Origin: Cymbidium sinense
Lineage: Eukaryota; Streptophyta; Magnoliopsida; Asparagales; Orchidaceae
Assembly: GCA_021442155.1 (NCBI GenBank)
Contig: CM038214.1
Location: 144,990,488-145,054,487, forward strand
Direction of reading: 5' to 3'
DNA: 64,000 bases
In this document: piece after piece, positions 3,889 to 63,749 of the stretch
Layout of the letters: each line of letters begins with the position of its first letter
Position numbering within the stretch: position 1 is the first letter of the stretch
Notes under the pieces: generated by a model
What the model was told of the DNA's origin: nothing
Database searches by the model: none
The model's input: the letters and a program-made list of their open reading frames with translations, nothing else
Program-made: the position numbers and the translations under genes

Positions 3889-4374
3889 TTTTTTTTAATA
3901 GAGAATAAATTCAAATTCAACATTTCTTCCTTTGATTTGATCAACCAAGTAGCACCCCAAGTTTTCTAAGGCACAAGCAATGACAAGATAAAAAATGAGC
4001 ACCCATAGAGCAAATAAAAAAACCTTAGATAAGTAGAACCGTCTATACTGTAAAGACATAGTTCCAAAAGTAGTAGATCGACCATTCTTCAATTTCTCTA
4101 GTTCCCATCAGAACCACCCTCGCCTCTCGAGTAGCAGAATCCATCATCATATCCCAGATCTCTCCCTCCACCACAACCATGGATATAACCACCATCCCTC
4201 CTCCTGCCTCAATAACCACCTCTGCTTCGACCACCACTTCCATATCCACCAGCACCTCCAGATTCCCCACCACCACTATGATAACCGCTGCCTTCGGCTT
4301 CGCTTCCACCGCTAGATCTAGATTGAGCATAGTTGATAATGATGTTCCTTCTGCCAAGGTTCTGCCCATTCTTA
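3889..4374 (-). pseudogene. Glycine-rich RNA-binding protein (GRP) cDNA fragment, copy 1
   Basis: Read on the minus strand, this is the 3' end of a plant GRP mRNA. It begins at the last RRM residues (NGQNLGRRN, then AQSRSS) and continues through a Gly/Tyr/Ser/Arg-rich tail (SGYHSGGGE, SGGAGGYGSGG, RRRDGGY) to YSRGEGGSDGN near 4100. A 3' UTR of about 200 bp follows and ends in a short A-run (T-run on + at 3889-3896). GRP proteins of this class bind RNA through an N-terminal RRM. Here the start codon and most of the RRM are absent. The tail frame has one internal stop, and the penultimate Trp codon of the usual end is TAG. Telomere-like DNA lies on both sides with no promoter. The fragment is dead, and its identity comes from the RRM-end motif plus the Gly-rich tail. 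Confidence 0.82.
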
Positions 4375-4568
4375 GGGTTTAAGGTTTGTTTAAGGTTTAT
4401 GGTTTAGCATTTAGTGTTTAGGATTTAGAGTTTAGGGTTGTAAGCTTTAGGGTTTAGGGTTTAGGGTTTTAGGGATTAGGGTTTAGAATTTATGATTTAT
4501 TGTTTAGGGTTTACAACTTATGGTTCAAGGTTTAGGGTTTAGGATTTAGGGATAGTTTTAGGGTTTAG
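4375..4568 (+). repeat. Degenerate telomere-like array
   Basis: TTTAGGG-type motifs resume immediately after the GRP breakpoint (CCCATTCTTAGGGTTTAAGG). Unlike most later modules, copies 1 and 2 lack the TTTTTAATTTATTTAGTTAC flank. No gene is seen. Confidence 0.9.
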
Positions 4569-5395
4569 AGGTTTTTTTTAAAAAAAGAAAATCGATAGGT
4601 TTTGGTTTATTTAGTTTATTTTTTATTTATTTGAGTTTATTTTATTTCTATTTTTATTTAGGTTTATTTTTTATTTAGTTTAGTTTATTTATTATAGGTT
4701 TATTTATTTAAATTTAGGTTTTTTATTTTAGTTTATTTTTTTACATTTAAGTATATTTTTAGTAGAGTTTTATTTTTATTTTACTTTTTAGGTTTAGATT
4801 TTAGTTTTAATTTTTAGGTTTAGGTTTTAGTTTTTTATTTTAGGTTTATTTTTAGGTTTTACTTTTTAGTTTAGGTTTATGTTTATTTTTAGTTTATTAT
4901 ATTTAATTTTATTTAGGTTTAGGTTTAGGTTTAATTTATTTTAGGTTCAGGTTTAGGTTTTATTTATTCTAGTTTAGTTTATTTTAGTTTAGGTTTAAGT
5001 TTATTTTTATTATTATTTTTTCTTATTTTTTTTTATTTTAGGTTTAGGTTCTTTTTTTAGTTAAGGGTTTAGGTTTTATTTTTTATTTATTTTTAAGTTT
5101 TATTTTTAGGTTTATTTTTTAAGTGTAAGTTTTTATTTATTTTATTTTATTTTAATTTAGGTTAATTTTAATTTTATTTTAGGTTTAGTTTTTATTTTAT
5201 TTAGGTTTTTTATTCTTTAGTTTTGTTTAGGATTTTATTTATTTTATTTTAGTCTAATTTTTATTTTTTATTTTATTTTATTTAGGTTTAGGTATTAATT
5301 TAGGTTTTCTTTTATTTTATTTTTGTTTAGGTTTTTTTATTTTTTTTTTATTTTTAGCTTTTATTTAGTTTAGGTTTAGGTTTTTAACATTTTAT
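4569..5395 (+). repeat. T-rich telomere-derived block (TTTATTTTAGG-like)
   Basis: Low-complexity DNA made almost only of TTTA, TTTTA and TTTAGG words, with very little C. It is introduced by a TTTTTTTAAA..GATAGGTTTTGG segment, a weak version of the AAATTAAGTAAAC start found at other T-rich blocks. It resembles the plant telomere motif with G replaced or lost. No coding potential. Confidence 0.85.
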
Positions 5396-5494
5396 TATTT
5401 AGGGTTTAGTGTTTAGGGCTTAGGGTTTAGGGTTTGGGGTTTAGGGTTTAGGTTTAAGTTTTAGTTTGGGTTTAGTTTAGGGTTTAAGGTTTTT
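5396..5494 (+). repeat. Degenerate telomere-like array
   Basis: Short return to TTTAGGG and TTTAGTG motifs directly upstream (on +) of GRP copy 2. Confidence 0.85.
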
Positions 5495-5967
5495 ATTTTT
5501 AACAGATAACAAATTCATATTCAACATTTCTTCTTTTTAATTTCATCAACCAAGTAGCACCTCAAGTTCTCTAGTACATAAACGATGACATAGCTAAAAA
5601 ATGAGCACCTATAGAAGAAATTAAAAACCCTAGATAAGTTGAACTATCTCTACTATAAAGATAAAGTTCCATAAGCAGTAGATTGGATTGACCGTTCTTC
5701 AATTTCTATAGTTCCCATCCAACCTCTCAGTAGCGGATCCACCATCATACCCTTCAATCTTTTCCCTCTGCGCCATGGTGTAACCTCTTCTCGCTTCTCC
5801 CACCTCCATACCCTTTGCTCCGACACCACCTACTTATTCAGGCACCACCTCCAAATCCTCAACAACCACTTTGATAACCTCCGCCTCCATCTTAGCCTCC
5901 ACCAACAGATCTTGAATGAGCTTAGTTGACGGTGATGTTCATGCCGTCGAGGTTCTGCCTATCGTTA
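5495..5967 (-). pseudogene. GRP cDNA fragment, copy 2
   Basis: Same module as copy 1. On the minus strand the RRM end reads DRQNLDGMNITVN, then a stop where Gln is expected, then AHSRS. A degraded Gly-rich tail follows, then the shared 3' UTR (AAAAATGAGCACC..TAGAAG on +) and a T-rich run marking the poly(A) end. It lacks a start codon and the upstream RRM. The downstream flank goes straight to TTAGGGTTTAGGGATAG, as in copy 1, so copies 1 and 2 may form their own subtype. Confidence 0.78.
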
Positions 5968-6225: not shown

Positions 6226-6955
6226 TTTTTTAAATTAAGTAAACTGGTAGGTTAATGTTTATTTAGTTCATTTTATTTTTTATCTTTAATTAGGTTTATT
6301 TTTTTATTTAGTTTAGTTTACTTATTTAGGTTTATTTATTTTAGTTTATTTTTTAGGTTTAGGTTTATTTTTTAGTTGAGTTTTATTTTTATTTTCTTTT
6401 TAAGGTTTAAGTTTTATTTTGATTTTTAGGTTTGATTTAGGTTTTTATTTTATGTTTTTAGGTTTAGGTTTTAGGTATTTTTTATGTTTATTTTTATGTT
6501 TTATTTCTTAGTCTAGGTTTAGGCTTATTTTTAGTTTATTTTATTTTATTTAGTTTAGGCTTATGTTTAGTTTATTTTAAGTTTAGGTTTAGGTTTTGTA
6601 TATTTTAGTTTAGTTTATTTTGGTGTAGGTTTAGGTTTATTTTATTTTATTTTTATTTTAGGTTTAATTTTTTTTTATTTTTAGGTTTTATTCTTAGGTC
6701 AATTTTTTAGGCGTAGGTTTTTATTAATTTTCATTTTATTTTTATTTAATGTTTAGTTTTTATTTAATTTAGTTTTTTTATTCTTATGTTTATTTTACTT
6801 TTTAATTTAGTTTAGGTTTTATTTATTTTATTTTTTTATTTATTATTATTTTTATTTTATTTTATTTAGGTTAAGGATTTTTTTATTTATTTGATAGTAG
6901 GTTATTTTAGCTTAGGTTTAGCTTTTTTTGGGCTTAGGTTTAGCTTTTTCAATTT
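6226..6955 (+). repeat. T-rich telomere-derived block
   Basis: Begins with TTTTTAAATTAAGTAAACTGG and then TTTATTTTAGG-like words. The start motif recurs at about 7405, 8618 and 12355, giving a block period of roughly 0.9-1.2 kb where no GRP module intervenes. Confidence 0.85.
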
Positions 6956-7390
6956 TTAGTGTTTAGGGTTTAGGGTTTATAGTTTTAAGGTTTAGGGTAT
7001 TAGGGTTTATAGTTTAGGGTTAGGGTTTGGGGTTTAGTGTTTAAGGTTTTGAGGGTTTAAGTTTTAGGCTTTAGGGTTAGCTTAGTGTTTCGGCTTAGTT
7101 TGGAGTTTAGGGTTTTGGGTTTAGGGTTTAGGGTTTAGGTTTTAGGGTTTAGGGTTAGTTTAAGGTTTAGGGTTTAGGATTTTTGGGTTTAGGGTTTAGG
7201 GTTGAGGTTAGTTAGTAGGTTTGATATAGGTTTTAGGGTTTAGGCTTAGGGTTTAGAGTTAGTTTATTGTTTAGGGTTTAGGGTTTAGGGTTTTTAGGGT
7301 TTGCGATTTAGGGTTTAGGGTTTAGGGTTATAGGTTTTGGGTTTAAGGTTTAGGGTTGAGGATTTAGGGTTTAGGTTTAGGGTTTAGGGT
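6956..7390 (+). repeat. Telomere-like array
   Basis: TTTAGGG motifs with TTTAGTG, TTTGGGG and TTTCGGC variants. No GRP module here, so this higher-order unit lacks it. Confidence 0.9.
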
Positions 7391-8225
7391 TTAAGATTTT
7401 TTTCTTAAAAATTAAGTAAATTTGTATGTTTAGGTTAATTTAGTTTATTAACTTTATTTTTTATTTATTATAGTTTATTTTATTTTTTATTTTTATTTAG
7501 GTTTTTTTTATTTAGTTTAATTTATTTATTTTAGCTTTTTTTATTTTAATTTAGGTTTTTTATTTTATTTTATTTTTTTAGGTTTAGGTTTTGGTTTAGG
7601 TTTAGGTTTATTTTTTAGTTGAGTTTTATTTTTACTTATTTTTTAGGTTTAGGTTTTATTTTTATTTTTAGGTTTAGGTTTAGGTAGCTTTTGTAAGTTT
7701 AAGGTTTAAGTTTTTTATTTTAGGTTTATTTTTAGGTTTTAATTTTTAGTTTAGATACAGGTTTATTTTTAGTTTATTTTATTTTATTTAGTTTAGGTTT
7801 AGGTTTTATTGATTTTAGTTTAGTTTATTTTAGTTTAGTTTATTTTAGTTTAGGTTTAGGTTTATTTTATTTTGTTTATTTTATTTTTCTTTTAGGTTTA
7901 GGGTTTTTTTATTTTGGAATTAGGTTTTTTTTAGGTTTACTTTTTAGGATTAGGTTTTTATTTCATTTTTATTTTTTTTATCTTAAGTTTTTTTATTTTT
8001 ATTTTACATTTAGCTTTTATTTTATTTAGTTTTTTTTCCTTATCTCTATCTTATTTTTTTACTTTAGTTTTGGTTTTTATTTATTTTATTTAAGTTTTTT
8101 TTAAGTTATTTTTAAGTTTAGGTTTAGTTTTAGTTTAGGTTTTTATTTTATTTTATTTTATTCTTAAGGTTTAGGTTTTTTGATTTTTTTTTATTATTAG
8201 GTTTTCTTTAGTTTAGGTTTAGGTT
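7391..8225 (+). repeat. T-rich telomere-derived block
   Basis: Starts with TTCTTAAAAATTAAGTAAAT, then T-rich TTTAGG-derived words in the same order as the other T-rich blocks (for example TTTTATTTTGTTTATTTTA near 7870). Confidence 0.85.
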
Positions 8226-9210: not shown

Positions 9211-9619
9211 CTTTTTTTTAATAGAGAACAAATTCAGATTCAACATTTCTTTTTTTTTTATTTCATCAACCAAGTAATGCACCAAGTTTTCTAAGACACG
9301 AGCAACAACATAGATAAAAAATGAGCACTCATAGAGCAAATCAAAAACCCTAGATAACTTGAATCTCTCTTTAAAGTCTGATTCAAGTAGATGGGTCATT
9401 GACGTTCTTCAATTTCTCCAATTCCTATTAGAACCACCGACCTCTCAGTGGCGGAATCCATCATATTCCGATCTCTCCTTACTACCACCAGTAACCTCCA
9501 TCCTCCATAACACCACCTTCCACCACCTCATAATCCCCACCATGATGCTCCTCCGCCTTGCCTCCACTTTTGATCTAGGAGCATGGTTGGGTGATGTTAT
9601 CAAGGTTACGCCATTCTTA
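9211..9619 (-). pseudogene. GRP cDNA fragment, copy 3
   Basis: A contracted version (about 410 bp) of the GRP module, minus strand. The RRM end survives as a degraded NLDNITQP-like stretch. The Gly-rich tail is shortened by deletions and out of frame. The terminal NWRN codons with the normal Trp are still readable at about 9405-9420. The 3' UTR is intact through the antisense CAACCAAGTAATGCACC segment and ends in a T-run on +. Start codon and RRM are absent. Confidence 0.72.
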
Positions 9620-10614: not shown

Positions 10615-11000
10615 GGTTTTTTTTAACAGAGAATAAAATTCAATATTTCTTCTTTTTGATTTCATCAACCAAGTAACACAAATAGTTTTCTAAGACATAA
10701 GCGACAACATAGTTAAAAAATGACCACGCATAGAGCGAATCAAAAACCTTAGATAACTTGAATTGTCTATTTATTTACATAGAAGATGTCAACCATTCTT
10801 TTCCAGTTTCCATTACCTCTCAAGTAGAGGGATCCACCATCATGTCCCATCTCACTTTATGGTTGTAACCTTCATTGCTCCTCCCATAACCACCACGGCT
10901 TACCACCATTTTCACCTTAACCATTTAATAATTTCACCTCTGCCTTGCCTTCACTAGATCTATGATTTTTTGATGTTTATTTATCAGGTTTCCCATTTAT
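10615..11000 (-). pseudogene. GRP cDNA fragment, copy 4 (strongly decayed)
   Basis: The 3' UTR is clear (TTTCATCAACCAAGTAACAC and AAAAAATGACCACGCATAGA on +). The Gly-rich tail is cut by deletions, leaving CCTCCCATAACCACC-like remnants. The RRM end is replaced by GATGTTTATTTATCAGGTTT, which still aligns with the GATGTTCTTGCCATCAAGGTT consensus. No frame remains. Confidence 0.65.
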
Positions 11001-12889: not shown

Positions 12890-13329
12890 TGTTTAAGATT
12901 GTTGGCAATCATCTATTTTTTTTATGCTTTTAAATATAAATTAGGATTTAGCAAATTTGGTTTAATTGTAAGCATTTTATTGGGATTACAAAAGCAATTT
13001 GTAAAAATCATTTGGCTAGATTTAAGTTAAATGCATATCTTGCTAATCTTGTAGCAAATAGGCATAAAATTAAATAGAATTGTAGAGAGATGATGGTTTC
13101 AAAATAACACAAGAAGATTTAGATTTAGAAAGCGAAGTATTTAGTCATTATTTCATAGTAAATCAATTGATGGTTATGGGATTTAAGAATCAAAACACAT
13201 GAATTGGATTTAGAGAAGCAAAAAACACAATGAGGGTGGAAAAAAGGAGGGTTTTGAAACTAATACTTAAATCATATGTATCCGAATCGATTTCATCTTT
13301 GGGGTGTATATGTAATGAAACTAGAATTA

Positions 13330-13870
13330 GGTTAGGATCTTGGAATATAGTACTTCTAATAGAATTAATAAATTATGGTTCATAGAAGATAAATATTTTA
13401 TGTGTTCAAGAAAATAAATGGGTTGGGGAGAAAGCCAAAGAGATTGATAGTTTAGGTTTTAAACTTTGGTATTGGTAGAAGTCAATTAGAAATGGCATAG
13501 GTGTGATTATAGATAATAGTTTGAAGGATAATGTTATATTAATAGATTGAGATAGAATTATAGCTTTAAGATTATTATTAGATTATCAATGTTATAAGCA
13601 TTTATGCTCTAAAGTAGGTTTGGATGTAGGCTCAAAAGAAAATTTTGGAATGAATTAGAGGATTAATACAAAAGTTACCTCTTAAAGAAAACATATTTAT
13701 TGGAGGAGATTTAAATGGACATGTTGGTAGAGTGGCAAAAGATTTTAAAAGTATTCATGGTGGTTATAAATTTGGAGTGCCTAATGAAGAAGGTTGTAAT
13801 ATATTGGATTTTGCTTTAGCCTATGATTTTGTAGTTGCTAATATTTAAGAAAAATAGATCATATTACTTA
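13330..13870 (+). pseudogene. RTE LINE endonuclease domain, broken
   Basis: Shifting between frames recovers the endonuclease hallmarks. LGSWNI is near 13335, followed by a QENKWVGEKAKE stretch (family QETKWVG) near 13410. Then come IRNGIGVIIDNSL near 13480-13520, a GGDFNGH-like region near 13700-13725 (GGAGATTTAAATGGACATGT), and a SILDFAVAYD-like stretch near 13800. In this family the domain nicks target DNA to prime reverse transcription. Several stop codons and one-base shifts show decay. The first about 440 bp of the element, before this domain, have no recognisable product. Confidence 0.75.
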
Positions 13871-14288
13871 TAAAATGGATAAGGTCATTAAAGAAAGTTT
13901 AAATAAATATAAATTATTCCAAGTTTAGAATTTAAGATGAAAGATTGAAGATGATAAATAAATCAAATTATTATTCTAGGATTAGATGGGGGCACTTGAA
14001 AATACTAAATATTTTTAAGAGCAAGCTACAAGAGCTTAGAATTTAGGATGTTCATAAGGAAGCTAATGTTATGTTGGAAAATGTAGCAAGTGAAATTAAG
14101 CAAGCTGCTAAAAATGTGCTTGGAGAATCAAAAGGAAAAGCTTCTTTTAATAAAATAGTTGGTGGTGGAGTCAGAATGTGCAAGAAAAGATAAAAATAAG
14201 AAGTGTTGTTATAAAACTTGGTTTAGATGTAAAACTCAATGAATTGGAAAAATATAAAGTGGCATGTAGATATTAAAGAAAGCAATAT

Positions 14289-15515
14289 ATGATTAAAAAA
14301 TTAGCTTTTAGTGATTTATACAATAGATTAGATACCAAAGAAGGTGAAAGATGTATGTATAAGTTAGCTAACCAAAGAGATAGGAGAAGTAAAGATCTAG
14401 CTCAACTAAAGTGTATTAAGGATGAAAATCATAAAGTGCTTTTCTTAGAAAAGGATATTGAAAGTAGGTGGATGAGGTATTTTGATAAACTTTTCAATGA
14501 AGGATCTAAAAAAATGATTGATTTTAGCAACCTTAATACCTTAAACAAAAATAGAGAATTTTTTTTAATCATCATATTAGTAAATCTGAAGTTAGAGAAG
14601 CTTTAAAGAAAATGAAATGTGGAAAAATAGTAGGACCTGATGATATTCCAATAGAAGTGTGGAAATGTTTAGGAGATCAAGGAATTTCTTGGCTTACAAA
14701 TCTTTTTAATCTTATTTTAAAGACTAAAAAGATGCCAGATTAGTGGAGAAAGAGTTTGTTGATTCCTATATTTAAGAATAAAGGTGATGCACAAGAGTGT
14801 GCAAATTATAGAGGAATTAAGTTAATGTGTCACACATTAAAATTATGGGAGAGAGTAATTGAGCATAGGTTATGATGTGATACAAAAGTTTCTCAAATTT
14901 GGTTTCATGCAGTAGATCTACTATGGATGCTATACATTTGTTAAGAGGTTTATTGAAGAAGTATAGAGAAAGGAAGGAGGATCACATATAATATTTATTG
15001 ATTTAGAAAGCTTATGATAAAGTTTGAAGAGTTGTTCTTTAGAGAGTTCTAGAAAATAAAGAGTTAATATTGGTTATATTCAAGTCATTAAGAATATGTA
15101 TAGAACTATTACTTGTGTCCAAACATAGGAGGATTGACAAAATATTTTCTATTTCGGTTGGATTACATCAAGGATCGACTTTAAGCCCTTATCTTTTTTG
15201 CTTTAGATGGACGTTCTTACTAGGCATTTACAGGAAGATGTATCTTGGTGTATGCTTTTTGCTGATGACATTCTTCTTGTTGATAAGACTAGAAAGGGAG
15301 TCCAAAAGAAACTTGAATTATGGAGGTCAACCTTAGAGTCTAATGTTTTTTGTTTAAGTAGATCTAAAATTGAATATATGGAGTGTAATTTTAGTTGTAG
15401 AAGTTATAGTGGGAGTGTTGTGACATTAGGTGAACAAGTCATTAAAAAGAGTGAGCAATTCAGATATTTAGGCTCTATTATTCAAAATGATGGTGAAATA
15501 GATGATATTTATTAG
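14289..15515 (+). pseudogene. RTE LINE reverse transcriptase, broken by stops and frameshifts
   Basis: The pieces include a linker segment with RSKDLAQLKCIKDENHKVL (14370-14440) and KCGKIVGPDDIPIEVWKC (14610-14670). They continue with LLIPIFKNKGDAQ..NYRGIKLM (14755-14825), a GLHQGSTLSPYLF stretch (15160-15205) and MDVLTRHLQ (15207 on). The catalytic FADD box is at 15258-15269, followed by LELWRSTLES and LSRSKIEYMEC. These are the palm and fingers motifs of RTE-clade RT, which copies the element RNA at the nick. The order and spacing are complete, but the sequence needs at least three frame changes and contains stops. Confidence 0.82.
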
Positions 15516-33000: not shown

Positions 33001-33010
33001 TTTTTGAAAA

Positions 33011-50606: not shown

Positions 50607-52303
50607 TGGTCTAGGTTTAGGTTTAGGTTTATTAGGTTTTAGGGTGTTGGTATATTTTTTAATTTATTTAGTTGCTTAGGTTTAAGTTTAGGGTTTGTGC
50701 TTTAGGCTTGGGTTTAGGGTTAGGGTTTTAAGGTTTATGCTTTTAGGGTTTAAGGTTTAGGGCTTGGGTTGGGTTTAGGTTTTGGGTTAGAGTTTATGGT
50801 TTTGGGTTTTGGGTTGTCATGTTTACTATTTATTTAGGTTAGGGTTTTATTTTATTTATTTTTTATTTTAGGGTTTAAAATTTAGGGTTTATGGTTTTTT
50901 AAAAAAATTAGCAAACCCCAGTTAGTTTACTTAGTTTATTTTTTATTATTATTTAGGTTTATTTTATTTTATTTAGTTGAGTTTATTTATTTTAGGTTTA
51001 TTTCTTTTAGTTTAGGTTTTATCTTTAGTTTATTTTAAGATTAGGTTTATTTTAGTTGCATTTATTTTATTTTATTTTAGGTTTAGTTTTTGGTTTTAGT
51101 AGGGTTTAGGTTTAGTTTAGTCAGGGAGTTGTGTTGGGGGGTTTAGGGTTTAGGATTAGGGCCCAGGATCAGGGTAGGGTTTAGTGTTTAGAGTCAGCCA
51201 GTTTAGGGTGTGGTTAGGGTAGGTTGGTTTGGTGGTTTAGGTTTAGTGTTTAGGGTCATGTAGGGGTTTAGTTTAGGGTTTAGGGTTAAGGATTTTATTT
51301 TATTTTTATTTTTAGGGTTTATGTTTAGGGTTTAGGGTTTGGGCTCAGGATTTATTTAGGTTTATTTAAATTAAGCAAACAGCAGCAGGTCTTTTATTAT
51401 TTTTTTAGTTTAGTTTATTTATTTATTTTTTGGTTTAATTATTTTTTTAGGTTTTTATTTTAGTTTTTTTTAGGCCTTTAGGTTTATGTTTATGTTTCTT
51501 AGTTTATTTTATTTTAATTTTAATTTTAGGTTTAGGTTTTTTATTTTATTTTTAGGTTTAGGTTTAGGTTTTTATTATTTTATTTTTGGTTTAGGTTTAT
51601 TTTTAGTTTATTCTATTTTATTTTATTTAGGGTTTAGGTTTAGTTTATTTTAGGTTTAGGTTTTATTTATTTTTATTTCAATTTAGGTTTATTTTATTTT
51701 GTTTATTTTAGGTTTAGGTTTTTTTTAAGTTTAAGGCTTAGGTTTTATTATTTATTTATTTTTTAGGTTTTCTTTTTAGGTTTAGGTCTTTAGTTAGTTT
51801 ATAATTTTTTTATTTTAGGTTTTTTATTTTAGTTTTTTGTTTAGTCTTTATTTTATTTAGGTTTTTTATTTTTAGTTTAATTTTATTTTTTAGTTTAGTT
51901 TATATTTTTATTTATTTTATTTTAGTTTAATTTTTATTTTTTATTTTATTTTATTTTTAGGCTTAGGTTTAGGTTTAAGGGTTTAATTTAGGTTATAATT
52001 TTATTTTAGCTTTTATTTTATTTATTTTTAGGTTTTTTTTATTTATATTATTTTTAGGTTTTATTTAGTTTAGGATTAAGTTTTTAGGGTTTAGGGTGTA
52101 TGGTTTAGAGTTTTGGGTTTAGGGTTGTATGTTTTAGGGTTTAGGGTTTAGGGTTTTAGGTTTATGGTTTAGGGTTAGTTTTTTTTTAATTTTTTTTTTA
52201 TTTTTAGTGTTTAGGTTTTAGGATTTAGGTTTTAGGGTTTCAGGTTTAGGTTTTAGGTTTAAGGTTTAAGGTTCAGTTTTAATTTAGGGTCTAAGGTTAT
52301 AGG
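50607..52303 (+). repeat. Array between GRP copies 13 and 14
   Basis: Telomere-like with flank to 50900, T-rich to 51085, mixed GC-enriched telomere-like (AGGGCCCAGGATCAGGG) to 51370. Then T-rich from AAATTAAGCAAAC to 52080, and telomere-like to 52303 with an AAGGTTCAGTTTTAATTTAG lead-in. No gene. Confidence 0.8.
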
Positions 52304-52750
52304 TTTTTTTCTTAACAGAGCATAAATTCAGATACAACATTTCCTCTTCTCAATTTCATCAACCAAGTAACACACCAAGTTTTCTAAGACACAAGTTTAC
52401 AGATAAAAAATGAGCTTGCATAGAGAAAATCAAAAGCCTAGATAACTAGAACCACCTCACTATAAAGACACATTCAATAAACCATAAATCGATCGTTCTT
52501 CAATTTCTTCGCCCATCAGACCACCACCTCTCGAGTGGATCCACCATCATATCTCCAATCTCTCCGTCCGCTAGTACCACATTTGTAACCTCCATCGTTC
52601 CTTCTTCCTACATAACCACAACTGCTCGGACCACCACCTCGATATCTACTAGCACCTCTTGATCCCCACCACCATGATAATCACCGCTTTTTCCTCCCAG
52701 ATCTATACGAGGTTGACGTATGTTCCTACTATCAAGGTTCCCCATTCTTG
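52304..52750 (-). pseudogene. GRP cDNA fragment, copy 14
   Basis: A moderately contracted copy. The tail contains ATATCGAGGTGGTGG and GGTGGGGATCAAGAGG stretches on the minus strand. The 3' UTR is almost complete, with two short losses. The RRM end is shortened (ATAGTAGGAAC on the minus strand). First member of the second close pair (with copy 15). Confidence 0.77.
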
Positions 52751-53139
52751 GTTTAGGTTTATGTTTAGGTTTATTAAGTTTTAAGGTTTAGTTTATTTTT
52801 AATTTATTTAGTTACATTAAGTTTAGGTTTAGGGTTTGGAGTTTAGTGTTTAGGGTTTAGGGTTAGGGTTTAGGGTTTAGGGTTTAGAGTTTGGGATTTA
52901 GGGTTTAGAGTTTTAGGGTTTATGCTTTTAAGGTTAAGGGTTTAGGGTTATGGTTTATGGTTTAGGGTATAGGGTTTAGGGTTTAGGGTTTCTTAGGGTT
53001 TAGGGTTTAGGGTTTAGGGCAAAGGGTTGTAGGTTTAGGGTTTAGGGTCAGGATATTTTTTTTAATTTTTAAGGTTTAGGGTTTATGGTTTATGTTTGAG
53101 GTTTAGGGTTCAGCTTTTAGTTTAGGGTTAAAGGTTTTA
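52751..53139 (+). repeat. Telomere-like spacer inside GRP pair 14/15
   Basis: Includes the TTTTTAATTTATTTAGTTAC flank and long TTTAGGG runs near 52975-53020. Parallels 49819-50135. Confidence 0.88.
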
Positions 53140-53590
53140 GTTTTTTTTGATAGAGAATAAATTTACATTCAACATTTCTTCTTTTCAATTTCATCAAAAA
53201 AGTAACACATCAAGAATTCTAAGACCTAAGCGATGACATAGATAAAAAATGAGCACAAATAGAGCAAATCAGAAACCCTAGATAACTAGAACCATCTCTA
53301 CTGTAAAGACACAGTTCCATAAGTAGCAAATTGTATCGACTATTCTTCAATTCCCTCCAGTTTCCATCAGAACCTCCCCGACCTCTCGGGTAGCGGGATC
53401 CACCATCATATCCTTGATCTCTCCCTCTACTACCACCATGACTATAACCTTTGTCGCTCCTCCCTCTATAACCACCAATGCTCTGACCACCACCTTTGTA
53501 TCCACCAACACTACGACATCCGCTTCGGCCCTCCAGCCAACTGACAGCCTTGGAGTGATGTTCTTGCCATCAAGGTTCTTCCCATTCTTA
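53140..53590 (-). pseudogene. GRP cDNA fragment, copy 15
   Basis: The best-preserved C-terminus. The RRM end reads NGKNLDGKNIT. A deletion removes most of the first Gly-rich part, then SVGGYKGGGQSIGGYRG, RSDKGYSHGGSRGRDQGY and DGGSRYPRGRGGSDGNW follow, with the normal terminal Trp. The 3' UTR is complete with an A-run. No RRM or start. Confidence 0.86.
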
Positions 53591-55363
53591 GAGTTTAGGT
53601 TTATGTTCAGGTTTAGTAGGTTTTAGGTTTTTTTTTAAATTTATTTAGTTACGTAGGTTTAAATTTAGGGTCTGGGGTTTTGGGGTTGGGATTTAGGGTT
53701 TATGGTTTATGATTTTGGGAGGGTGGTGAGGGTTGTGGGTTAGAATTAGGATTAGGATTTAGAGTTTAGGGTTTAGGGTTTGGGTTTACTTGTTTAGGGA
53801 GGTTGTAGGTTTAGTGCAGCTTAGGGTTTAGGGTTTAGGATTTTTAGGGTTTAAAGTCCAGGGAGGTTTTTTTTTATTTTTTTATTTTTAGGGTTTAGGT
53901 TAGTTTGGGTTTAAGGTTTAGGGTTATAGATTTAGGGTTTAGAGTTATTTTTAAATTAAGTCTTAGGTAGTTTCTAGTTTACTTAGTTTACTTTATTTAT
54001 TTTATTTATTATTTTATTTAGGTTTATTCTTTCTTTATTTAGTTTATATATATTAGGTTTATTTCTTTTATTTTAAGTTTTATTTTAATTTATTTTTAGG
54101 TTTACAGGTTTATTTTATTTGAGTTTATCTTTTGTGTTTTGTTTTTTGGTTTAGGGTCAGTAGGGTTTAGGGTTTTATGATTTAGGGTTTTAGGGTCTGT
54201 TTAGGGTTAGAGTTTAGGGTTTAGTTTACCTTTAAGGTTTAGGGCTCAGGGTCAGGGGTTTAGGGTTTAGGGTTTTAGGATTTAGCCCAGGTGGGGGTTT
54301 AGCAGGTTTAGGGTTTAAGGTTTAAGGTGGTAGGGCTAGTATTTAGGGTAGGTCAAGGGTTAAAGATCTTATTATTATTAGAGTTTAGGGATTTGGTTTT
54401 GGTTAGGTTTTAGGTTTAGGGTCCCAGCCTTTAGTTTAGATTAATTTTAAATTAAGCAAACCAGTTTTAGGTTTTTAGTTTATTTGGTTTATTTTATATA
54501 TATTTCATTTATTTTAGGTTTATTTATTTTAGTTTAGTTATTTTATTTTAGTATATTTTTTAGGTTTATGTTTATTTTTTATTATTTTAGGTTTAGGTTT
54601 TATTTTTTTAGGTTTAGGTTTTGGTTTTATTTTACTTTTTTAGGTTTTTTTTATTTTAGGTTCTTTTAAGTATTATTTTAGTTTAGGTTTAGGTTTTTTT
54701 TAGTTTATTTTATTTTATTTAGTTTATAGTTTAGTTTAGTTTAGGTTTAGGTTTATAATTAATTTATTTTAGTTTTGTTTATTTTAGTTTAGGTTTAGGT
54801 ATATTTTATTTTGTTTATTTTAGGTTTAGGCATTTTTTAGTTTAAGGTTTAGGTTTTTTTATTATTTATTTTTAGGTTTTATTTTTATTTTTTATTTTTT
54901 AGGTTTAAGTTTTTATTTAGTTTTTATTTTAATTTAGCTTAGGTTTATTTAACTTATAATTTTGGTTTAGTTTTTATTTTATTTATGTTTTTTATTTTAA
55001 GGTTTATTTTATTTTTTAGTTTTGTTTATGTTTTTATTTATTATATTTTCGTTTAATTTTTCTTTTTCATTTTATTTGTCGATTTAGGTTTTAGTTTAGT
55101 AATTTTATTTTATTTTATTTGTTTATTTTATTTAGGTTTAGGTTTATTTATTTATTTATTTATTCTAAGTTTAATTTAGTTTATTCTAGGTTTCAGGTTT
55201 AAAGTTTAGGTTTAGGGTTTAAGATTTAGAGGTTTTAGGGTTTAAGTTTTGGATTTGGGTTTAGGGTTAGGTTTATTTTATTTTTCTATTATTTTTTTTT
55301 TTTATTTAGGGTTTAGGTTTAGGGTTTAGGTTTGAGGTGCAAGTTTTAGTTTTTTTGGTTTTG
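53591..55363 (+). repeat. Array between GRP copies 15 and 16
   Basis: Telomere-like with flank to 53945, T-rich to 54150, mixed telomere-like with GGCCCAG and GGTCAGGG words to 54430, T-rich to 55195, telomere-like to 55363. No gene. Confidence 0.8.
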
Positions 55364-55850
55364 GTTTTTTTAATAGAGAACAAATTCAAATTCAATATTT
55401 CTTCTTTTGATTTCATCAACCAACTAATACACCAAAGTTTTCTAAGACACAAGTGACAACATAGATATAAAATGAGCACGCATAGAGCCAATCAAAATCC
55501 TTAGATAACTAGAACTGTCTGTACTATAAAGAGAGTTTCATAAGCACAAGATCAGATCGATCATTCTTCAGTTTCTCCAGTTCGTATCAGAACCACCCGG
55601 TCCTCTTGAGTAGCAGGATCCACCATCATACCCTCAATCGCTCCCTCTGCCACCACTACGGCTGGAATCTCAGTCGCTCCACCTCCATAACCACCAATGA
55701 TCCGACCACTACCTCTGTATCCAATAACACCTCTAGATTGCCCACCACCACAACGATAACTACCACCTCTCCCTTTGCTTCGACTGCCAGATCTAGACTA
55801 ATTATGGTTGATGGTGATGTTCCTACCGTCAAGGTTCTACCCATTCCTAG
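55364..55850 (-). pseudogene. GRP cDNA fragment, copy 16
   Basis: Nearly full-length module. It reads NG, stop, NLDGRNITINHN, stop, SRSG. Two Gln codons (CAG) have become TAG. A Gly-rich tail follows with GRGGDCGG- and GGYGG-like stretches, with shifts. Terminal NWRN with Trp is present near 55570-55580. Full 3' UTR and A-run. Confidence 0.82.
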
Positions 55851-57323
55851 GGTTTAGGTTTAGGTTTAGGTTTATTTAGTTTTAGGGTTTAGTTTTACTT
55901 TTTAATTTATTTAGTTACTTTTGGTTTATGTTTAGGGTCTGGAGTTTAGGGTTTAGGGTTTAGGGTTAGGGTTTATGTTTTTAGGATTAAGGGTTTAGAG
56001 TTAGGTTTAGCATTCAGGCTTTTGGATTTAGGGTTTATGGTTTAGGGTTAGTTTAGAGTTTAGCATTTAGGGTTAGGGTTAGGGTTTAGGGTATATGGTT
56101 TAGGGTTTAGGGTTTAGAGTTGTAGGTTTAAAGTTTTCAGTTTAGGGTTAGTTTTAGTGTTTAGTGTTCAGGGTTTAGGGTTTAGAATTTAGGTAGGTTG
56201 GGGTTTAGGGGTATTTTTTTTAAATTAAACCCAGTATGTTTATTTATTTTATTTTTATTTATTTTAGTTAAGTTTATTTTTTTAGGTTTATTTATTTTAG
56301 TTTTGGTTTTCATTGTTTATTTTTAGGTTTTTAGCTTTGTGTTTGTTTTTTATTTTTTTTTAGGTTTAGGTTTTATTTTTTATTGTTAGGTTTAGCTTTA
56401 GGTTATTATTTTACCTTTTTAGGTTTAGGTTTTAGGTTTTTATTTTAAATTTGTTGTTAAGTTATATTTTCTCGTCTAGGTTTAGGTTTGTTTTTAGTTT
56501 ATTTTATTTTATTTAGTTTAGGGGGTTTTAGTTTATTTTTGGTTTAGGTTTAGGTTTTATTTATTTTAGTTTAGTTTATTTTAGTTAAGGTTTAGGTTTA
56601 TTTTATTTTATTTATTTTATGTTAAGCTTTTTTTTTAGTTTAGGGTTTAGGTTATATTTATTATTTATTTTTAGGTTTATTTTTTAGATTTAGGTTTTTG
56701 TTTTATTTATATTTTTCGTTTGGGTTTTATTTTATTTAAGTTTTCCACTTTTAGGTTTATTTAATTTTATATTTAGTTTAGGTTTTATTTATTTTATTTT
56801 ATTTTCTTTATATTTTTATTTTATTTTATTTTTAAGTTTAGGTTTATGTTTAGGTTTTAGTTTTTCTATTTTATTTTATTTTATTTTATTTTAAGTTCAA
56901 TTATTTTTTATTTTTTAGTTTTATTTAATTTAGGTTTAAGTTTTAGGTTTTAGTGTTTAGGGTTTAGGGTATAGCATGAGGTATGTTTTAAGGTTTAGGG
57001 TTTAGGGTTTAGGGTTTAGAGTTTTTAGGTTTAGGGTTTAGGGTTTAGGGTTTTAGGGTTTGGGGTTTTGGGTTGTAGGCTTAGGGTTTAGGGTTTAAGG
57101 TTAGGGTTATTTTTATTTTATTTTATTTTTTTATATAGGGTTTAGTGTTTAGGGTTATTTAGGGTTTAGGATTTAAGGTTTAAGGTTAAGGTTGTATGTT
57201 TAGGGTCAGTTTTTGAGCATAGGGTTTAGGGTTTATGATTTGGATTTAGTGTTTAGGGTTTAGGCTTTAGGGTTTAGGGTTAGTTTTAGGATTTAGGGTT
57301 TAGGATTTAGGGTTAGTTTAGAG
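55851..57323 (+). repeat. Telomere-like, T-rich and telomere-like blocks
   Basis: Telomere-like with module flank to 56220, T-rich from TTTTTTTAAATTAAACCC to 56935, then a long, fairly clean TTTAGGG-like block to the poly-T at 57324. Confidence 0.86.
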
Positions 57324-57435
57324 TTTTTTTTTTTAGGGGAAGCCCCATGTAGGGGTATTTTATTTCCACAAAAAGAGGGTTACAAAGTCCTTAAAAGGGG
57401 ATAAACTTTAACCAACTCAAAGAGCTACAATTAGC

Positions 57436-58280
57436 CTAAGGAGTAAATCCCCATCTAAGTACATCCAAGAGTAAAAGAAAGCATAAAACAATCAAAAGAT
57501 ACAAGATGATTAACATAATAAGCAAAGTAAGAATAAAGCCAATGCTCTGGAGGATGTGGGAATGCATGATAATCTGGAGCAGACCTGCAAAAGAAGGAGA
57601 GAGAATCACCTGCAAAGTTATAATAAGATGGAGATTAGAATAGTTAAGGTAATACAGACAAAAAGTTAGAGGAAAATAGCATAATATGATGATGTTAGTA
57701 AGGAATTGTGATAGAGAAGGCTCAGGCTCAATCACATCCTGTTGGGGTGAATGCAAGTATGAGCATCCAAACTTCAGCAGAAGGGTTACATCACATGAGC
57801 TACTACCGAACCAATAGGGAGTGAGATCATCACAGCCATCATAGCCAACAAACCTGTTAGAAGGTAGCACCCAGTTGTTGATATTCTTGTGAGCTTTATT
57901 ACTGCAAACCTAAGCAAAATCATATCTAAAATATATAGGTAATTGCTAAGAGCTGAAGGATAAGGAGTCTCATTTAAGAAAAATATCATCAATTTAGCCA
58001 TCTTGATATGAGAATACATAAACATAAGTGAGTGAACCATCTTAGCCAGAATCTCATGAATAGCCATATTTAGGAAAGAAAATAGTTCATCATATAATCC
58101 CTCCATAAGAAAATTACAGAGGAGACAACTTGTTGAAAACCTGTTAAATAAGTCAATGAGCCTATAATTAACACCATCCCAATCACATGATATGTAAATG
58201 AATCTTTCAAGAAAACAACCTGTGAAATAATCCCTTATTAATGTCCTATAGAAAGCAATAGTAAGGACGACATAGCTCAA
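57436..58280 (-). pseudogene. Overlapping unidentified frames in retroposon A
   Basis: Two minus-strand frames of 144 codons (57436-57870) and 164 codons (57786-58280) overlap and could be one frame-shifted sequence. They are rich in Leu, Ile and Phe and look like antisense-type low-information frames rather than a known protein. I recognise no domain. Their length in AT-rich DNA is slightly notable. Another 86-codon frame lies at 58469-58729. They may be chance frames in the element body. Confidence 0.25.
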
Positions 58281-58404
58281 CAGTGGAATGAATTACAACC
58301 AACCAAAATAAGCACCCAAAAAAATAGTTAGAGCGCCCAATAGAAAGATTCAAGGCCTCCATTCGATAATCCATCAACAATCAATCCGGAGAACAAGACA
58401 GCAA

Positions 58405-58730
58405 AAGGCAACAACATCCAAGAGAGGAAGGGACTAAATTGGCCATAAAACCATTCTTTCAAAATAAACTACTCATAAGATTGCACCAACCAGTCAGAAA
58501 CGAGGTAGCAGGTGATGCAGATCGGAAAAAATAGGAGGTAAATTGCACGGGCAATCAGAAAGCCAACCCCAACAGCCAAACATCTAATACAACATTGGCA
58601 CCCGCCATAAAGAAAAACAACAAGTGAATTGAAATGAGTCTCAACATTAAAATCCAAAAAAATAAAGCTTAAGACACAACATCCAAGATAAGAAGATATA
58701 GCAAATTGGCCATAAAACTCCTCAATCATA
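58405..58730. repeat. Internal direct repeat in retroposon A
   Basis: ACATCCAAGA..AAATTGGCCATAAAAC occurs at about 58408-58452 and again at about 58679-58720, about 270 bp apart. Confidence 0.7.
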
Positions 58731-58808
58731 GAAGGCTTGGCAATAATAGATAAACAAATAAATAAAGCATAAAAATAGTTATCTCAAAGAAATTAGAAAT
58801 CACCAAAA

Positions 58809-58845
58809 CCCTCTTGATCCCCACCACCATGCGATAACGCTACCT
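58809..58845 (-). pseudogene. GRP remnant at retroposon A boundary
   Basis: CTCTTGATCCCCACCACCAT matches the Gly-rich tail of GRP copy 14 at about 52654-52676, followed by a looser GCGATAACGCTACC match. The rest of the module is missing. It is too short to be certain. Confidence 0.45.
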
Positions 58846-59776
58846 GCTTCGATTGGTCTGCCTTTATGGCCGTTAAAAGAATGGTTTTTTAGTTTAGTTT
58901 ATTTATTTTAGGTATATTTAATTTAGTTTAGGGTCTTTATTTTAGTTTATTTTTTAGGTTTAGGTTTAAGTCTTTTTTTTACATTTAGGTTTAGGTTTTT
59001 ATTTAATTTTTTTAGGTTTAAGTTTTAGGTTTTCATTTAAGGGTAATTTTTAGGTTTTATTTTTTAGTTTAGGTTTAGGTTTATGTTTAGTATATTTCTT
59101 TTATTATGTTTAGGTTTAGGTTTAGTTTATTATAAGTTTAGGTTCAGGTTTTATTTATTTTAGTTTAGGTTTAAGTTTATTTTATTTTGTTTAGTTTATT
59201 TTTATTTTAGGTTTAGGTTTTTTTTAGTTTAGTTTTATGATTTATTTTTTTAGGTTTATTATTTAAGTTTAGAGGTTTAGTTTATTATAAGTTTAGGTTT
59301 TATTTATTTTAGTTTAGGTTTAAGTTTATTTTATTTTGTTTAGTTTATTTTTTATTTTAGGTTTAGGTTTTAGTTTAGTTTATGCTTTATTTTTTTAGGT
59401 TTATTATTTAGGTTTAGGTTTTTACTTCTTTTATTTTAGGTTTATTTCATTTTATTTTACATTTAGTTTTTTTTTTTTAGGTTTTATTCTTAGGCTTATT
59501 ATAGTTTAGTTTATTTTATTTATTTATTTTATTTTATTATTTTATTTATTTAGTTTTATTTTATTTAGTTTAGGTTTTTTATTTATTTTACTTTTTAGGA
59601 TTTAGGTTTTAGGTTTTAGAGGTTTTGGTTTTAGTTTGGGTTTTGTTTATGGTTTAGGTTTATAATTTTGGTTTAGGGTTATTTAGAATTGGTTTAGGGG
59701 TTTAGGGTTTAGGGTTTAGGAATTTAAGTTTAGGGGGTTTAGGATTTAGGGTTTAGGGTTTGGGTTTTTTGGGTTT
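58846..59776 (+). repeat. T-rich block then telomere-like block
   Basis: About 30 bp of unassigned sequence, T-rich words to 59590 with one local tandem duplication (a TTATTATAAGTTTAGGTT-type stretch near 59120 recurs at 59282), then TTTAGGG-like motifs to 59776. Confidence 0.82.
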
Positions 59777-60452
59777 TAGAGAATTAGGAAAATTTTATTG
59801 CCACAAGAAAAGGTACAAGAATGCAGAGGGCTAAATCTCTAGTTAATGCTCGAGCGTTAAAGTCCAAAGAGATAAACCCCTAGCCATTACAATAATTAGG
59901 GAAAGAAAGCAAAAGAACAAAATGACCAAGTAACCAATAGCGAAAATCTATGTAAGACATATGGTCCTTAGGTGCCAACAAGATCCACTTGCAAGGTGTC
60001 TAACCTATAAAAGAAATCTTCAACATACTTTTGAAAAGGTAGTACAATTAATCAACATAAAGTAAGAGATAAAAGGAGTAAAGTAAAGAAAAGGCTCATG
60101 CTCAATTACAATCATCTCAAGGAGCAACATGTATGTAAGCATCAAAACTTCAGGAGAAGGGTTTGATTACATATACTTATATAAACCAAAAAGAAGAAAG
60201 AGTGGGAAACATCAAGGCCATCATTGCCGACATACTTTTGTGTAGCACATTATCAAAGATGGTCCTCCAGCGCAAAACCCTCAAATAGCAGAATGCAGAT
60301 CAACCACCAAGCCTCAGAACAAGCTTAATAAGATAGATAAGCAAGCAACCCAGAGGATATAGCAAAACAAAGGAGCACCACAAAAGCCACCACCAAAAGG
60401 AATACCAAAATCAAGAGGACCAAACATCATGATATGAGTAACAACACTAAGC
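59777..60452 (-). mobile_element. LINE-like retroposon fragment B, cut by the assembly gap
   Basis: Related to fragment A. Both have TTATT(G/T)CCACAA at the same end, AAGGCTCA(T/G)GCTCAAT, GCATC(A/C)AAACTTCAG and GAAGGGTT in order. Here no T-run of note lies at the junction (TTAGAGAATTAGGAAAATTT). The sequence stops at the N-gap, so its right end is unknown. No long frame and no recognisable domain. Confidence 0.6.
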
Positions 60453-60552
60453 NNNNNNNNNNNNNNNNNNNNNNNNNNNNNNNNNNNNNNNNNNNNNNNN
60501 NNNNNNNNNNNNNNNNNNNNNNNNNNNNNNNNNNNNNNNNNNNNNNNNNNNN
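60453..60552. other. Assembly gap of exactly 100 N
   Basis: A run of 100 unknown bases, a size scaffolding software commonly uses for a join of unknown length. The contig on its right starts with DNA that duplicates 41349 onward. Confidence 0.97.
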
Positions 60553-63293
60553 TTTAATTTATATGTTGATTTTGATTTTAATTTACATTTAGTTTTTATT
60601 ATATTTAAGTTTTTTTAGGTTTATTTTATTTTATTCATTTAGTTTAGGTTTTTATTTATTTTATTTTACTTTAGTTTTTATTTTTTATTTTATTTTCCTT
60701 TTATGTTTAGGTTTGGGTCTTGGTTTTAGATAAGGTTTTATTTTATTTTATTTTTTATTTTATTTAGGTTTAGGTTTAGTTATTTATTTTATTTTTAGGT
60801 TTTATTTAGTTTAGTTTTAGATTTTTTTGACTTTTAGGGTTTAGGATTTAGGGTTGTAGGTTGTAGGTTTTAGGGTGTAGGGTTTATGGTTTAGGGTTTC
60901 AGGGTTTAGGGTTTAGGGTTTTTAGGTTTAGGGTTTAGGGTTGTAGGTTTAGGGTTCAAGCTTTAGGGTTAGGGTATTTTTTATTTTTTTTTAATTTTTT
61001 AATTTTATTTATTTTTTTAAATTAAGTAAACTTATAGGTTTAGGTTTATTTAGTTTATTTAGTATTTATTTTTGTTTATTTTATTTCTTATTTTTAATGT
61101 TATTTAGTTTAGTTTTTTTATTTTAGTTTATTTTTTAGGTTTAGGTTTATTTAGGTTTAGGTTTAGGTTTAGGTTTAGGTTTAGGTTATAGTTTAGTTTT
61201 ATTTTTATTTTAGTTTTTAGGTTTAGGTTATTTATTATTTTAGATTTAGGGTTATAGGTTTAGGGTGCAGGTTTAGGATTTAGGGTTTAGGGTTAGTTTT
61301 AGGGATTAGAGCTTGGGGTTTAGGGTTTAGGGTTTAGGGGGGTTTTTTTCTAAATCAAGTAAACTCATAGGTTTAGGTTTATTTAATTTAATTAGTTTAA
61401 TTTTCATTTATTTTAGTTTATTTTATTTTTTTTATTTAGCTTTATTATTTATTTTTATTTGGTTTAGTTTATTTAGCTTAGTTTAGGATTTTTTTTAATT
61501 TTATTTTTTAGGTTTAGGATTATGTTTATGTTTATTTTTTAGTTTAGTTTTATTTTATTTATTTTTTATGTTTCGGGTTTTATTTTATTTGTTTGGTTTA
61601 GGTTTTATGTGTTTCTTTTAGGTTTATTTTTAGGTTTTTAATTTATTTTATTTTCTTTTGTTTACAGTTTAGGTTTAGTTTATTTTAGGTTTAGGGTTAG
61701 GTTTTATTTATTTTAGTTTATTTTATTTTAGTTTAGGTTTAGGTTTATTTAATTTTACTTATTTTGGGTTTAGGTTTTTTCGTAGTTTACATTTTATGTT
61801 TTATTTTTTATTTATTTTTAGGTTTATTTTTTATGTTAGTTTTATTTATTATTTATTTTATTTTATTTTAGGTTTATTTTATTTTTATTTTATGTTTAGA
61901 TTCTATTTTATTTAGGTTTATTATTTTTAGGTTTATTTTATTTTTTTAGTTTAGTTTAAGTTTTAATTTATTTTATTTTAGTTTAGCTTTTATTTTTTAT
62001 TTTATTTTATTTTTACATTTAGGTTTAGGTTTAGGTTTAGGTTTAGGTTTTAGTTTAGGATTTTATTTTATTTTATTTTTTATTTCATTTAGTTTTAGGT
62101 TTATTTATTTATTTAAATTTTAAGTTTTATTTTGTTTAGGTTTAGGTTTTAGGTTTTTAGGGTTTAGGATTTAGGGTTTAGGGTTTAGGGTTATAAATTT
62201 TAGGGTTTAAGGTTTAGGGTTTAGGGTTTAGAGTTTATGGTTTGGGTTTTAGGGTTTAGGGTTTAGGTTTAGGGTTTAGTGTTTTAAGGTTTAGGGTTTA
62301 GGGTTTAGGGTTTAGGGTTAGGTTTTTTTTTAAATTTTTTTAATTTTTATGTTTATTTAGTTTATTTAGGATTATTAGTTATTTATTTTTTATTTTTATT
62401 ATTATTTAGTTTAGTTTATTTATTTTAGGTTTATTTATTTTAGTTTAGATTTTTTATTTTAGTTTATTTTAGGTTTAGGTTTAGGTTTATTTTTTAAACT
62501 TAGTTTTATTTTTATTTTATTTTTTAGGTTTAGGTTTTATTTTTTATTTTTAGGTTTAGCTTTAGGTTTTTATTTATTTTTTTAGGTTTAGGTTTATGTT
62601 TTTTTTAAGGTTTATTTTTAGGTTTATTTTAGTTTCTTACATTTTTAGTTTATTTTATTTTATTTAGGCTTTAGGTTTAGGTTTTGTTTTAGGTTTTATT
62701 TATTTTAGTTTAGCTTATTTTAGTTTAGGTTTAGGTTTATTTTATTTTTATTTTAAGTTTAAGTTTTTTTTTAGTTTAGGGTTTAGGTTTTATTTTTTAT
62801 TTATTTTTAGGTTTTATTTTTGGGTTTATTTTTTAGGTTTAAATTTTTATTTATTTTTTTTTATTCAAGGTTTATTTTATTTTTATTTTAGGTTTAGTTT
62901 TTATTTTATGTAAGTTTTTATTATTTTAGTTTTGTTTATGGTTTATTTATGTTATTTTAATTTTAATTTATTTTTTTATTTTTTTATTTTTTAGGTTTAG
63001 GTTTAGAATTAAGTTTTAGTTTAGGTTTTTATTTTATTTTGGTTTAGTTTTTTTTATATTTTATTTAGTTTAGGTTTAGGTTTTTATCTTATAGGGTTTG
63101 GGGTTTAGCGTTTAGGGCTTAGGGTTAGTTGAGGGTTTTGGGATTAGGGTTTGGGGTTTAGCATTTAGGGTTTAAGGTCTAGGGTTTAGGGTTTAGGGTT
63201 TAGGATTTAGGATTTTTATGGTTTAGGGTTTAGGGTTTAAGGTTTTGATTATAGGTCTAGGGTTCAGGTTATAGTTTAGTGTTTAGGGTTTTG
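60553..63293 (+). repeat. Alternating telomere-like and T-rich blocks, second copy of 41.35-43.82 kb
   Basis: T-rich to 60830, telomere-like to 60975, T-rich to 61245, telomere-like to 61345, T-rich to 62150, telomere-like to 62325, T-rich to 63090, telomere-like to 63293. The TTTAGGG motifs are cleaner than in the 41-44 kb copy. The lead-in AGGTCTAGGGTTCAGGTTAT is intact. Confidence 0.87.
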
Positions 63294-63749
63294 GTTTTTT
63301 TTAGAGAGAAAATTCAGATTCAACATTTGTTCTTTTTGATTTCATCAACCAAGTAACAAACCAACTATTCTAAGACACAAGCGATGACATAGATAAAAAA
63401 TGAGCATGCATAGAGCAAATCAAAACCATAGATAACTAGAAGCGCCTCTATAAAACATAGTTCATAAGCGGATCAGTTGGTCATTCCTCGGTTTCTCTAG
63501 TTCCCATCGAACCACCCCACCTCAGTGGCGGGATCCACCATCACATCCCCGATCTCTCCCTCGCCACACCAAAGTATTAAACTCTGTCCTCCCTCACCCT
63601 CAATAACCACCCTGCTCCAACCACCACCTCCATTTCCACAGCACCTAGATCCACGACCACCATGATAACCACCACCTTCTTTGCCTCCATGCCAGATCTA
63701 GGAGCACGGTTGATGGTCATGTTCTACAGAGGTTTTGCCCATTCTTAGG
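63294..63749 (-). pseudogene. GRP cDNA fragment, copy 17 (paired with copy 10)
   Basis: Same variant 3' UTR (CAAGTAACAAACCAACTATT on +) and the same CAAAGTATTAAACTCTGTCC variant in the tail as copy 10. The Gly-rich tail, RRM end and TTTTGCCCATTCTTAGGATT breakpoint are readable with deletions. No RRM or start. Confidence 0.8.

Follow-up and report, generated by a model that had tools for sequence, protein, structure and literature searches.

Processed pseudogenes of the 5'-truncated, L1-type kind usually occur as single dispersed copies with a target duplication. The sequences described here share with them a 5' truncation, a 3' A-run and decay, but differ in being amplified within a satellite and in that a duplication is suggested at one copy only. 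They lie in a 64,000-nucleotide stretch of the genome of the orchid Cymbidium sinense (GenBank assembly GCA_021442155.1, contig CM038214.1, forward-strand positions 144,990,488 to 145,054,487; hereafter the window, with positions counted from its first letter), where the tail of a gene for a glycine-rich RNA-binding protein (GRP) recurs within an array of telomere-like DNA. The copies form one family with shared breakpoints, a constant orientation and shared surroundings; they are free of codon constraint and decayed at CG and CHG sites.

Interstitial telomeric repeat (ITR) arrays of plants have been reviewed or studied in several papers (PMC8621592, PMC9498494 and, for Cycas, PMC9827991). The portions of these sources available to us name Dendrobium as a genus with ITR polymorphism, and PMC9498494 places the telomeres of Dendrobium and Phalaenopsis with the Arabidopsis type. 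The array in the window resembles these arrays in its putatively interstitial tracts of the TTTAGGG type, whereas the arrays treated in those portions consist of telomeric variants alone and here a gene tail and a T-rich partner block recur. The ITRs of Cycas mix several variants and are methylated; their main additional variant, as given in the accessible part of the Cycas study, is TTCAGGG, which is outside the 14 commonest variants of the present array. Satellites seeded by ribosomal DNA (rDNA) spacers or parts of transposons have already been described (PMC5615363), and the accessible text of that source presents a similar case of an unrelated seed that is amplified and of higher-order repeats. 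The seed here, in contrast, is the tail of a protein-coding gene with its 3' untranslated region (3'UTR), and the host DNA is telomere-like. For Bombyx, the available part of PMC7265360 reports that the TRAS1 endonuclease nicks TT/AGG, between T and A of TTAGG, and that a foreign messenger RNA (mRNA) carrying the SART1 3'UTR as a fusion was inserted into telomeric repeats by SART1 proteins acting in trans. The likeness lies in reverse transcripts placed in telomeric repeats in a fixed orientation, whereas no telomere-specific element has been identified in the window, and for its two 3' ends resembling long interspersed nuclear elements (LINEs) a targeting of telomeric DNA would be hypothetical.

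In full-text searches of open-licence papers aimed at such an arrangement, none of the titles or abstract openings listed described a gene tail that recurs within a telomere-like repeat. The locus shows that a scrap of a gene can become a satellite component. The insert is a datable non-telomeric tag, so that its copies could be used to trace the spread of interstitial telomeric arrays, a task for which telomere repeats alone are ill suited. With it, the idea that copies of cellular mRNA enter telomere-type DNA can also be put to the test.

A family of gene-tail modules in one orientation

An iterated nhmmer profile search (--max, E<=1e-3), the final profile of which was built from its own matches, detected 17 GRP-tail copies in the window, every one of them on the minus strand. 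A piece comprising 3'UTR only (37988-38109) gave the weakest match, with an E value of 8.9e-26, and the first-pass annotation, which was made from the sequence alone and had claimed at least 17 minus-strand copies including one such remnant, was correct in this respect. In translation the 485-nt module consensus begins with GQNLDGRNITINQAQSR and continues through the Gly-rich tail to GRDRGYDGGSRYSRG, after which the frame slips and about 200 nt of 3'UTR-like DNA lead to an A-run. Identity of the copies to this consensus is 85-93%, and the mean pairwise identity among 16 modules is 85% (gaps not counted).

Consensus translation and homologue matches both indicate that the modules correspond to the tail of a plant GRP (GRP7-like), comprising the end of the RNA recognition motif (RRM) and the Gly-rich tail, as had been proposed. 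We compared the strict 82-residue consensus with 241 homologues obtained by word-based searches, a set limited to the matches listed, in which nearer relatives may be missing. The three closest of those listed are all orchid proteins, from Dendrobium chrysotoxum (P0074, 69/82), Phalaenopsis equestris (P0117, 68/82) and Dendrobium thyrsiflorum (P0172, 66/82), followed by P0079 (64/76) and P0003 (61/73). When the frame is closed to give 93 residues the same three again rank highest, with 79 (P0074), 78 (P0117) and 76 (P0172) of 93, while a Vanilla protein ranks only 221 among the 241 listed. On its own, this one gene, together with the Arabidopsis-type telomeres of Dendrobium and Phalaenopsis, would probably place the window among the orchids, perhaps in Epidendroideae; Cycas was set aside as a host, since TTCAGGG is not enriched in the array and the best GRP matches are those of orchids. 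The gene model of P0172 has a gag-like N-terminus (by eye) joined to the GRP tail, and is possibly another truncated GRP copy adjoining a retroelement.

The tryptophan position of the family C-terminus SDGNWRN reads TGG in 6 copies and TAG in 4, the pattern being unmatched in 7; the consensus has TAG. When the RRM of the Dendrobium protein was used as a tblastn query, matches on the modules started at about residue 70, with one reaching residue 62 via flank sequence. No credible tblastn match to the RRM upstream of about residue 70 was obtained in the window, where two unrelated plus-strand matches have E values of 4.9 and 7.9. By these matches the modules are gene fragments lacking a complete RRM and not GRP genes. 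Searches with the 93-residue tail gave no Pfam family at E<=1 and only weak PDB matches (best E 0.006), and Rfam returned nothing at the gathering score.

The boundaries of the modules are shared. A homologous start, G|AATGGGCAG, is present in 16 of the 17 modules and is absent only from the 37988 copy; the preceding base is G in 12 of these 16, and in most modules telomere-like CCCTAA or a variant of it stands before the start. The common start point asserted in the first-pass annotation is upheld as a homologous position, although the exact AATGGGCAG 9-mer is kept in 2 copies only. The common 3' end consists of a TTCTCTGTT-like sequence and an A-run, which measures 7-9 nt in 12 of the 17 copies and 4-5 nt in the other five; the first-pass annotation had described it as a short poly(A) run. 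With respect to flanks, the 5' motif reaches at least the 95th percentile of the array background in 9 of the 16 copies taken into the test; five more match at background level at a similar offset, and the 3890 and 5495 copies are without it. The 3' motif attains the same percentile in 11 of 17. Both motifs were derived from the copies on which they were tested, which renders the test partly circular. The earlier claim of shared flanks stands to this extent, but the flank motif then put forward, GGTCTAGGGTTCAGGTTTTA, is found at about 200 places with <=4 mismatches and is hence unspecific.

Several copies have individual features. The longest, module 1 (3890-4370), has plain telomere-like DNA on both sides and a 16-bp direct repeat, TTAGGGTTTAAGGTTT, at 3876 and 4372. 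Module 2 (5495-5963) is the other copy without the common 5' flank motif, module 3 (9213-9615) carries internal deletions, and the start of module 4 (10618-10997) lies beyond the profile match and is visible in the flank, this copy being taken to 11010, not 10997, in the tree, flank-motif, substitution-context and codon-position analyses. A GC-rich GGGCCCAGG-type stretch starts about 70-110 bp past the 5' end of module 5 (16397-16856). Two close pairs are present, formed by the copies at 49343-49814 and 50138-50602, the latter with an exact AATGGGCAG, and by those at 52307-52746 and 53142-53586, the latter with a tail that is open through SDGNWR. The copy at 63295-63743 is 95% identical to that at 43823-44287, which is located within a block related to 60553-64000. 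The other profile matches are modules 6 (18074-18478) and 7 (19523-19998) and the copies at 39923-40335, 45918-46367 and 55365-55845.

Phylogenetic analysis of 16 of the 17 copies gave a star-like tree with 13 inner branches, of which only the one that unites the 43823 and 63295 copies has firm support; the 3890 and 5495 copies pair at 80/80. The tree has no root, most of it lacks resolution, and its bootstrap had not converged. Its shape may be read as an old amplification burst with later block copies. Rates of change at codon positions 1, 2 and 3 (0.135, 0.117 and 0.114) are set against 0.103 in the 3'UTR, and the copies thus show no protein constraint. In each of the 16 coding-containing copies the frame is broken by gaps within the first 300 columns of the alignment, as counted in an alignment-dependent manner, and 12 of the 16 contain at least one in-frame stop, the consensus frame being counted to about nt 245. 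A coding function of the modules was rejected on the strength of these gaps, stops and unconstrained codon positions, and the amplified tail is probably inert. Changes of C to T plus G to A relative to the consensus, which may hide shared changes, amount to 0.248 in CG, 0.192 in CHG and 0.066 in CHH contexts; such CG/CHG decay is as expected of methylated plant DNA.

Composite architecture of the telomere-like array

Much of the window, from about 3.6 kb to its right end, is an array built from three recurring components that all keep one orientation. These are blocks of telomere-like TTTAGGG DNA (A), T-rich blocks composed of TTTA, TTTTA, TTTAGG and like words (T) and the GRP-tail modules (G). 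Positions 1-3580 are not telomere-like. TTTAGGG and its single-change heptamers (together with TTCAAGG) number 1640 on the plus strand and 65 on the minus strand, and TTTAGGGTTTAGGG at <=1 mismatch is found at 352 places, where 1.24 would be expected. The array has the bulk telomere-type repeats and the single strand orientation of an interstitial telomeric repeat array, and the placement of the fragment inside a telomere-derived array, as first suggested, is confirmed, with the addition that the repeat is a composite of A and T blocks and a junction. In 12 sampled A blocks, TTTAGGG accounts for 35% of 468 T+A+G* words; an example of such a block is found at 6955-7393 on the plus strand. Module-to-module spacing ranges from about 0.8 to 18 kb, unit length is irregular, and some A-T units are without a module.

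The T blocks open with this junction (J), which consists of AAATTAAGTAAAC followed by TAGGTTTAGG, as in the plus-strand example at 7409-8200, where J is followed by its T block. A motif for J, made in three rounds from seeds picked by eye, has 21 matches above 12 bits in the window, all on the plus strand. The T blocks are also homologous past J, since for 50 of 78 pairs the score of the true register exceeds that of every one of the six rotations of the partner (about 11 expected); this comparison used 13 of the 21 J, its pairs are not independent, and the blocks at 44495 and 61017 run into the next J. Larger blocks are also alike in self-BLAST, among the best 45 of 2501 pairs and without low-complexity control: 41349-44529 matches 60553-64000 at 85.7% identity, and 48515-53108 matches 51400-56210 at 72.8%, the latter figure likewise without a simple-sequence control. 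Taken together, J, the homologous T blocks and the block duplication show composite repeated units of common descent. We also considered J as the A-tail of a second reverse-transcribed component but draw no conclusion on this, as a T-run of at least 5 occurs near 14 of the 21 J but near 49% of random array places too.

T-rich blocks, for example 4640-5350, alternate with telomere-like blocks. GC-rich GGGCCCAGG-type blocks are located between telomere-like and T-rich DNA at 16930-17270, 20880-21050, 36925-37090 and 40420-40790 (borders by eye). The array is broken by other DNA, chiefly at 12.9-16.0, 21.3-36.9, 57.3-58.9 and 59.8-60.5 kb.

Origin of the modules

A single insertion with amplification afterwards has good support in the sequences, given the shared breakpoints, the constant orientation, the star-like tree and the repeated surroundings with their own junction J. 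The first-pass annotation had argued for one retroposition followed by amplification; the single origin and the amplification are borne out by the common start and 3' end, the orientation and the tree, and the fragment is likely, though not certainly, a cDNA. It had named independent breakpoints and intron sequence as findings that would count against it: in the window the breakpoints are not independent, and no intron sequence was recognised.

We regard it as moderately probable that a single LINE-driven retroposition of GRP mRNA into telomere-like DNA was followed by composite amplification and decay, an account in which we infer the RNA intermediate, the LINE machinery and the amplification route. 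In a single event, LINE-type machinery would have made a reverse transcript of the 3' part of a GRP messenger within telomere-like DNA; starting at the poly(A) end, this copy would have extended as far as the last RRM codons before it stopped. The nick made by TRAS1 primes the reverse-transcribed copy, and a nick in the TTTAGGG strand would provide a T-rich 3' end that could pair with the poly(A) tail. This would result in the plus-strand order TTTAGGG, T-run, antisense GRP, TTAGGG, which is the order observed. The telomere-like block and its insert would then have been multiplied with J and the T-rich block as composite-repeat units, either through unequal exchange or with circles as the template; block duplications would have come later, and the array would have been methylated and have decayed without coding function.

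An RNA origin is favoured by the A-run after 3'UTR-like sequence, the 5' truncation, the orientation shared with the two LINE-like 3' ends and one 16-bp flanking repeat, and on these features a cDNA origin of the module seems likely. Alternatively, a last-exon or 3'-end piece of a GRP gene may have been joined to telomere-like DNA by double-strand-break repair or a transposon and then amplified, in which case the A-run would be genomic and no RNA would have been involved. We judge this unlikely, although it deserves serious consideration. Gene models of the family bear on it. Five of the 241 have fewer than 25 residues before NDRETGRSRG (P0006, P0027, P0041, P0060 and P0066, of which two are from flax and none is orchid by name), and all five show unrelated residues right up to IINDRETG or VINDRETG. 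We read this point of divergence as a probable intron of the family, 31 codons upstream of the module breakpoint, a position that we take to agree with that of the GRP7 intron. If orchids are alike, the fragment would lie within one exon, so that absence of an intron cannot discriminate between DNA and RNA origins; the examination of parental introns recommended in the first-pass annotation placed the probable intron in five models without separating the two. A splice junction at the common start, which would make the upstream telomere-like DNA an intron, was considered and, for these plants, dropped, because the probable intron is 31 codons further upstream in 5/5 of the N-terminally odd models (non-orchid by name). 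The probable position inside one exon, the short A-run and the lack of a general target-duplication signal would suit capture of DNA. Retroposition is a better fit to the 5' truncation, the orientation and the mRNA-like 3' end, which lies about 200 nt past the stop at an A-run, and no Helitron, long terminal repeat (LTR) or other transposon ends were recognised by eye at the shared module borders.

Target duplication was examined in 16 copies. A 16-bp repeat flanks one of them (3890); a length of 16 nt is rarer among mismatched flank pairs, of which 1 in 240 reaches it. We refuse target-site duplication as proof of retroposition, as 16 bp at one copy is not a general feature; the repeat is a hint only, and it leaves the odds of the different readings unchanged. 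Several observations weigh against LINE-driven retroposition as outlined above. The mean flanking repeat over the 16 copies, 6.75 nt, barely exceeds the 6.14 nt of mismatched flank pairs, and in a second control two random TTAGGG sites have a common 16-mer with probability 0.04. The uniform orientation of the GRP copies counts as a single event, the intron test is uninformative for a cDNA origin, and an A-run of such small length could be genomic. A LINE at about 12900-16020, described below, is oriented opposite to the modules. Lastly, the 5' flank motif is missing from the 3890 and 5495 copies, which allows more than one order of events at the insert.

These two copies are bordered left and right by plain telomere-like DNA and could also represent an older form of the repeat left by retroposition at a chromosome terminus. 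The TTTAGGG-strand 3' end of a broken or eroded chromosome would have primed reverse transcription on the poly(A) of GRP mRNA and telomerase would have capped the cDNA, adding new TTAGGG after CCCATTC; the product would then have spread to other ends or circles and become interstitial. This predicts the order TTTAGGG, T-run, antisense cDNA, TTAGGG, but internal nicking yields the same order and would be favoured by the 16-bp repeat at 3890, if that is a real duplication. The array is moreover interrupted by other elements, and an unrooted and mostly unresolved tree cannot show which copies are oldest. We consider a terminal event improbable; there is accordingly only a slim prospect that the satellite records, in fossil form, an episode in which a cellular messenger repaired a telomere. 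The two kinds of 5' flank might alternatively reflect repeated, independent insertion of the GRP tail at a site that is favoured, perhaps as a component of a non-autonomous retroelement. It is highly unlikely that this took place, as the identical 5' truncation point in 16 of 17 copies and the flank DNA common to many of them would require repeated coincidence.

LINE-like and other elements in the window

Two inserts on the minus strand, at 57325-58885 and 59780-60452, have the orientation of the GRP modules and are presumably 3' ends of L1-type LINEs (borders by eye). Both have AATAAA near their minus-strand ends and both abut telomere-like DNA as the modules do; the first has an A11 run and the second is cut by the assembly gap. 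They are related to each other, with 460 of 609 aligned bases equal and an alignment score of 116.5, whereas 30 shuffles scored at most 70. No Pfam family was found in the two open frames tested of the 57325 insert. The interval 12900-16020 is occupied by a decayed LINE on the plus strand that ends near TTGTTGTCGTTGTTGG, has an RVT_1 match (E 9.3e-07, 29.2 bits, cut-off 29.6) and is, we assume, of the RTE-like clade. By eye, an open frame at 30055-30402 looks like the reverse transcriptase of a Ty3/gypsy element, for which Pfam returned no match.

The assembly gap consists of exactly 100 N (60453-60552) and lies within the array, and the block to its right resembles 41349-44529. One sequence of 3.3 kb occurs twice, at 390-3663 and 33781-36920 (80.8% identity), each time directly left of a stretch of the array. 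Either the duplication took in a larger block together with the border of the array, or an element has its end at both places.

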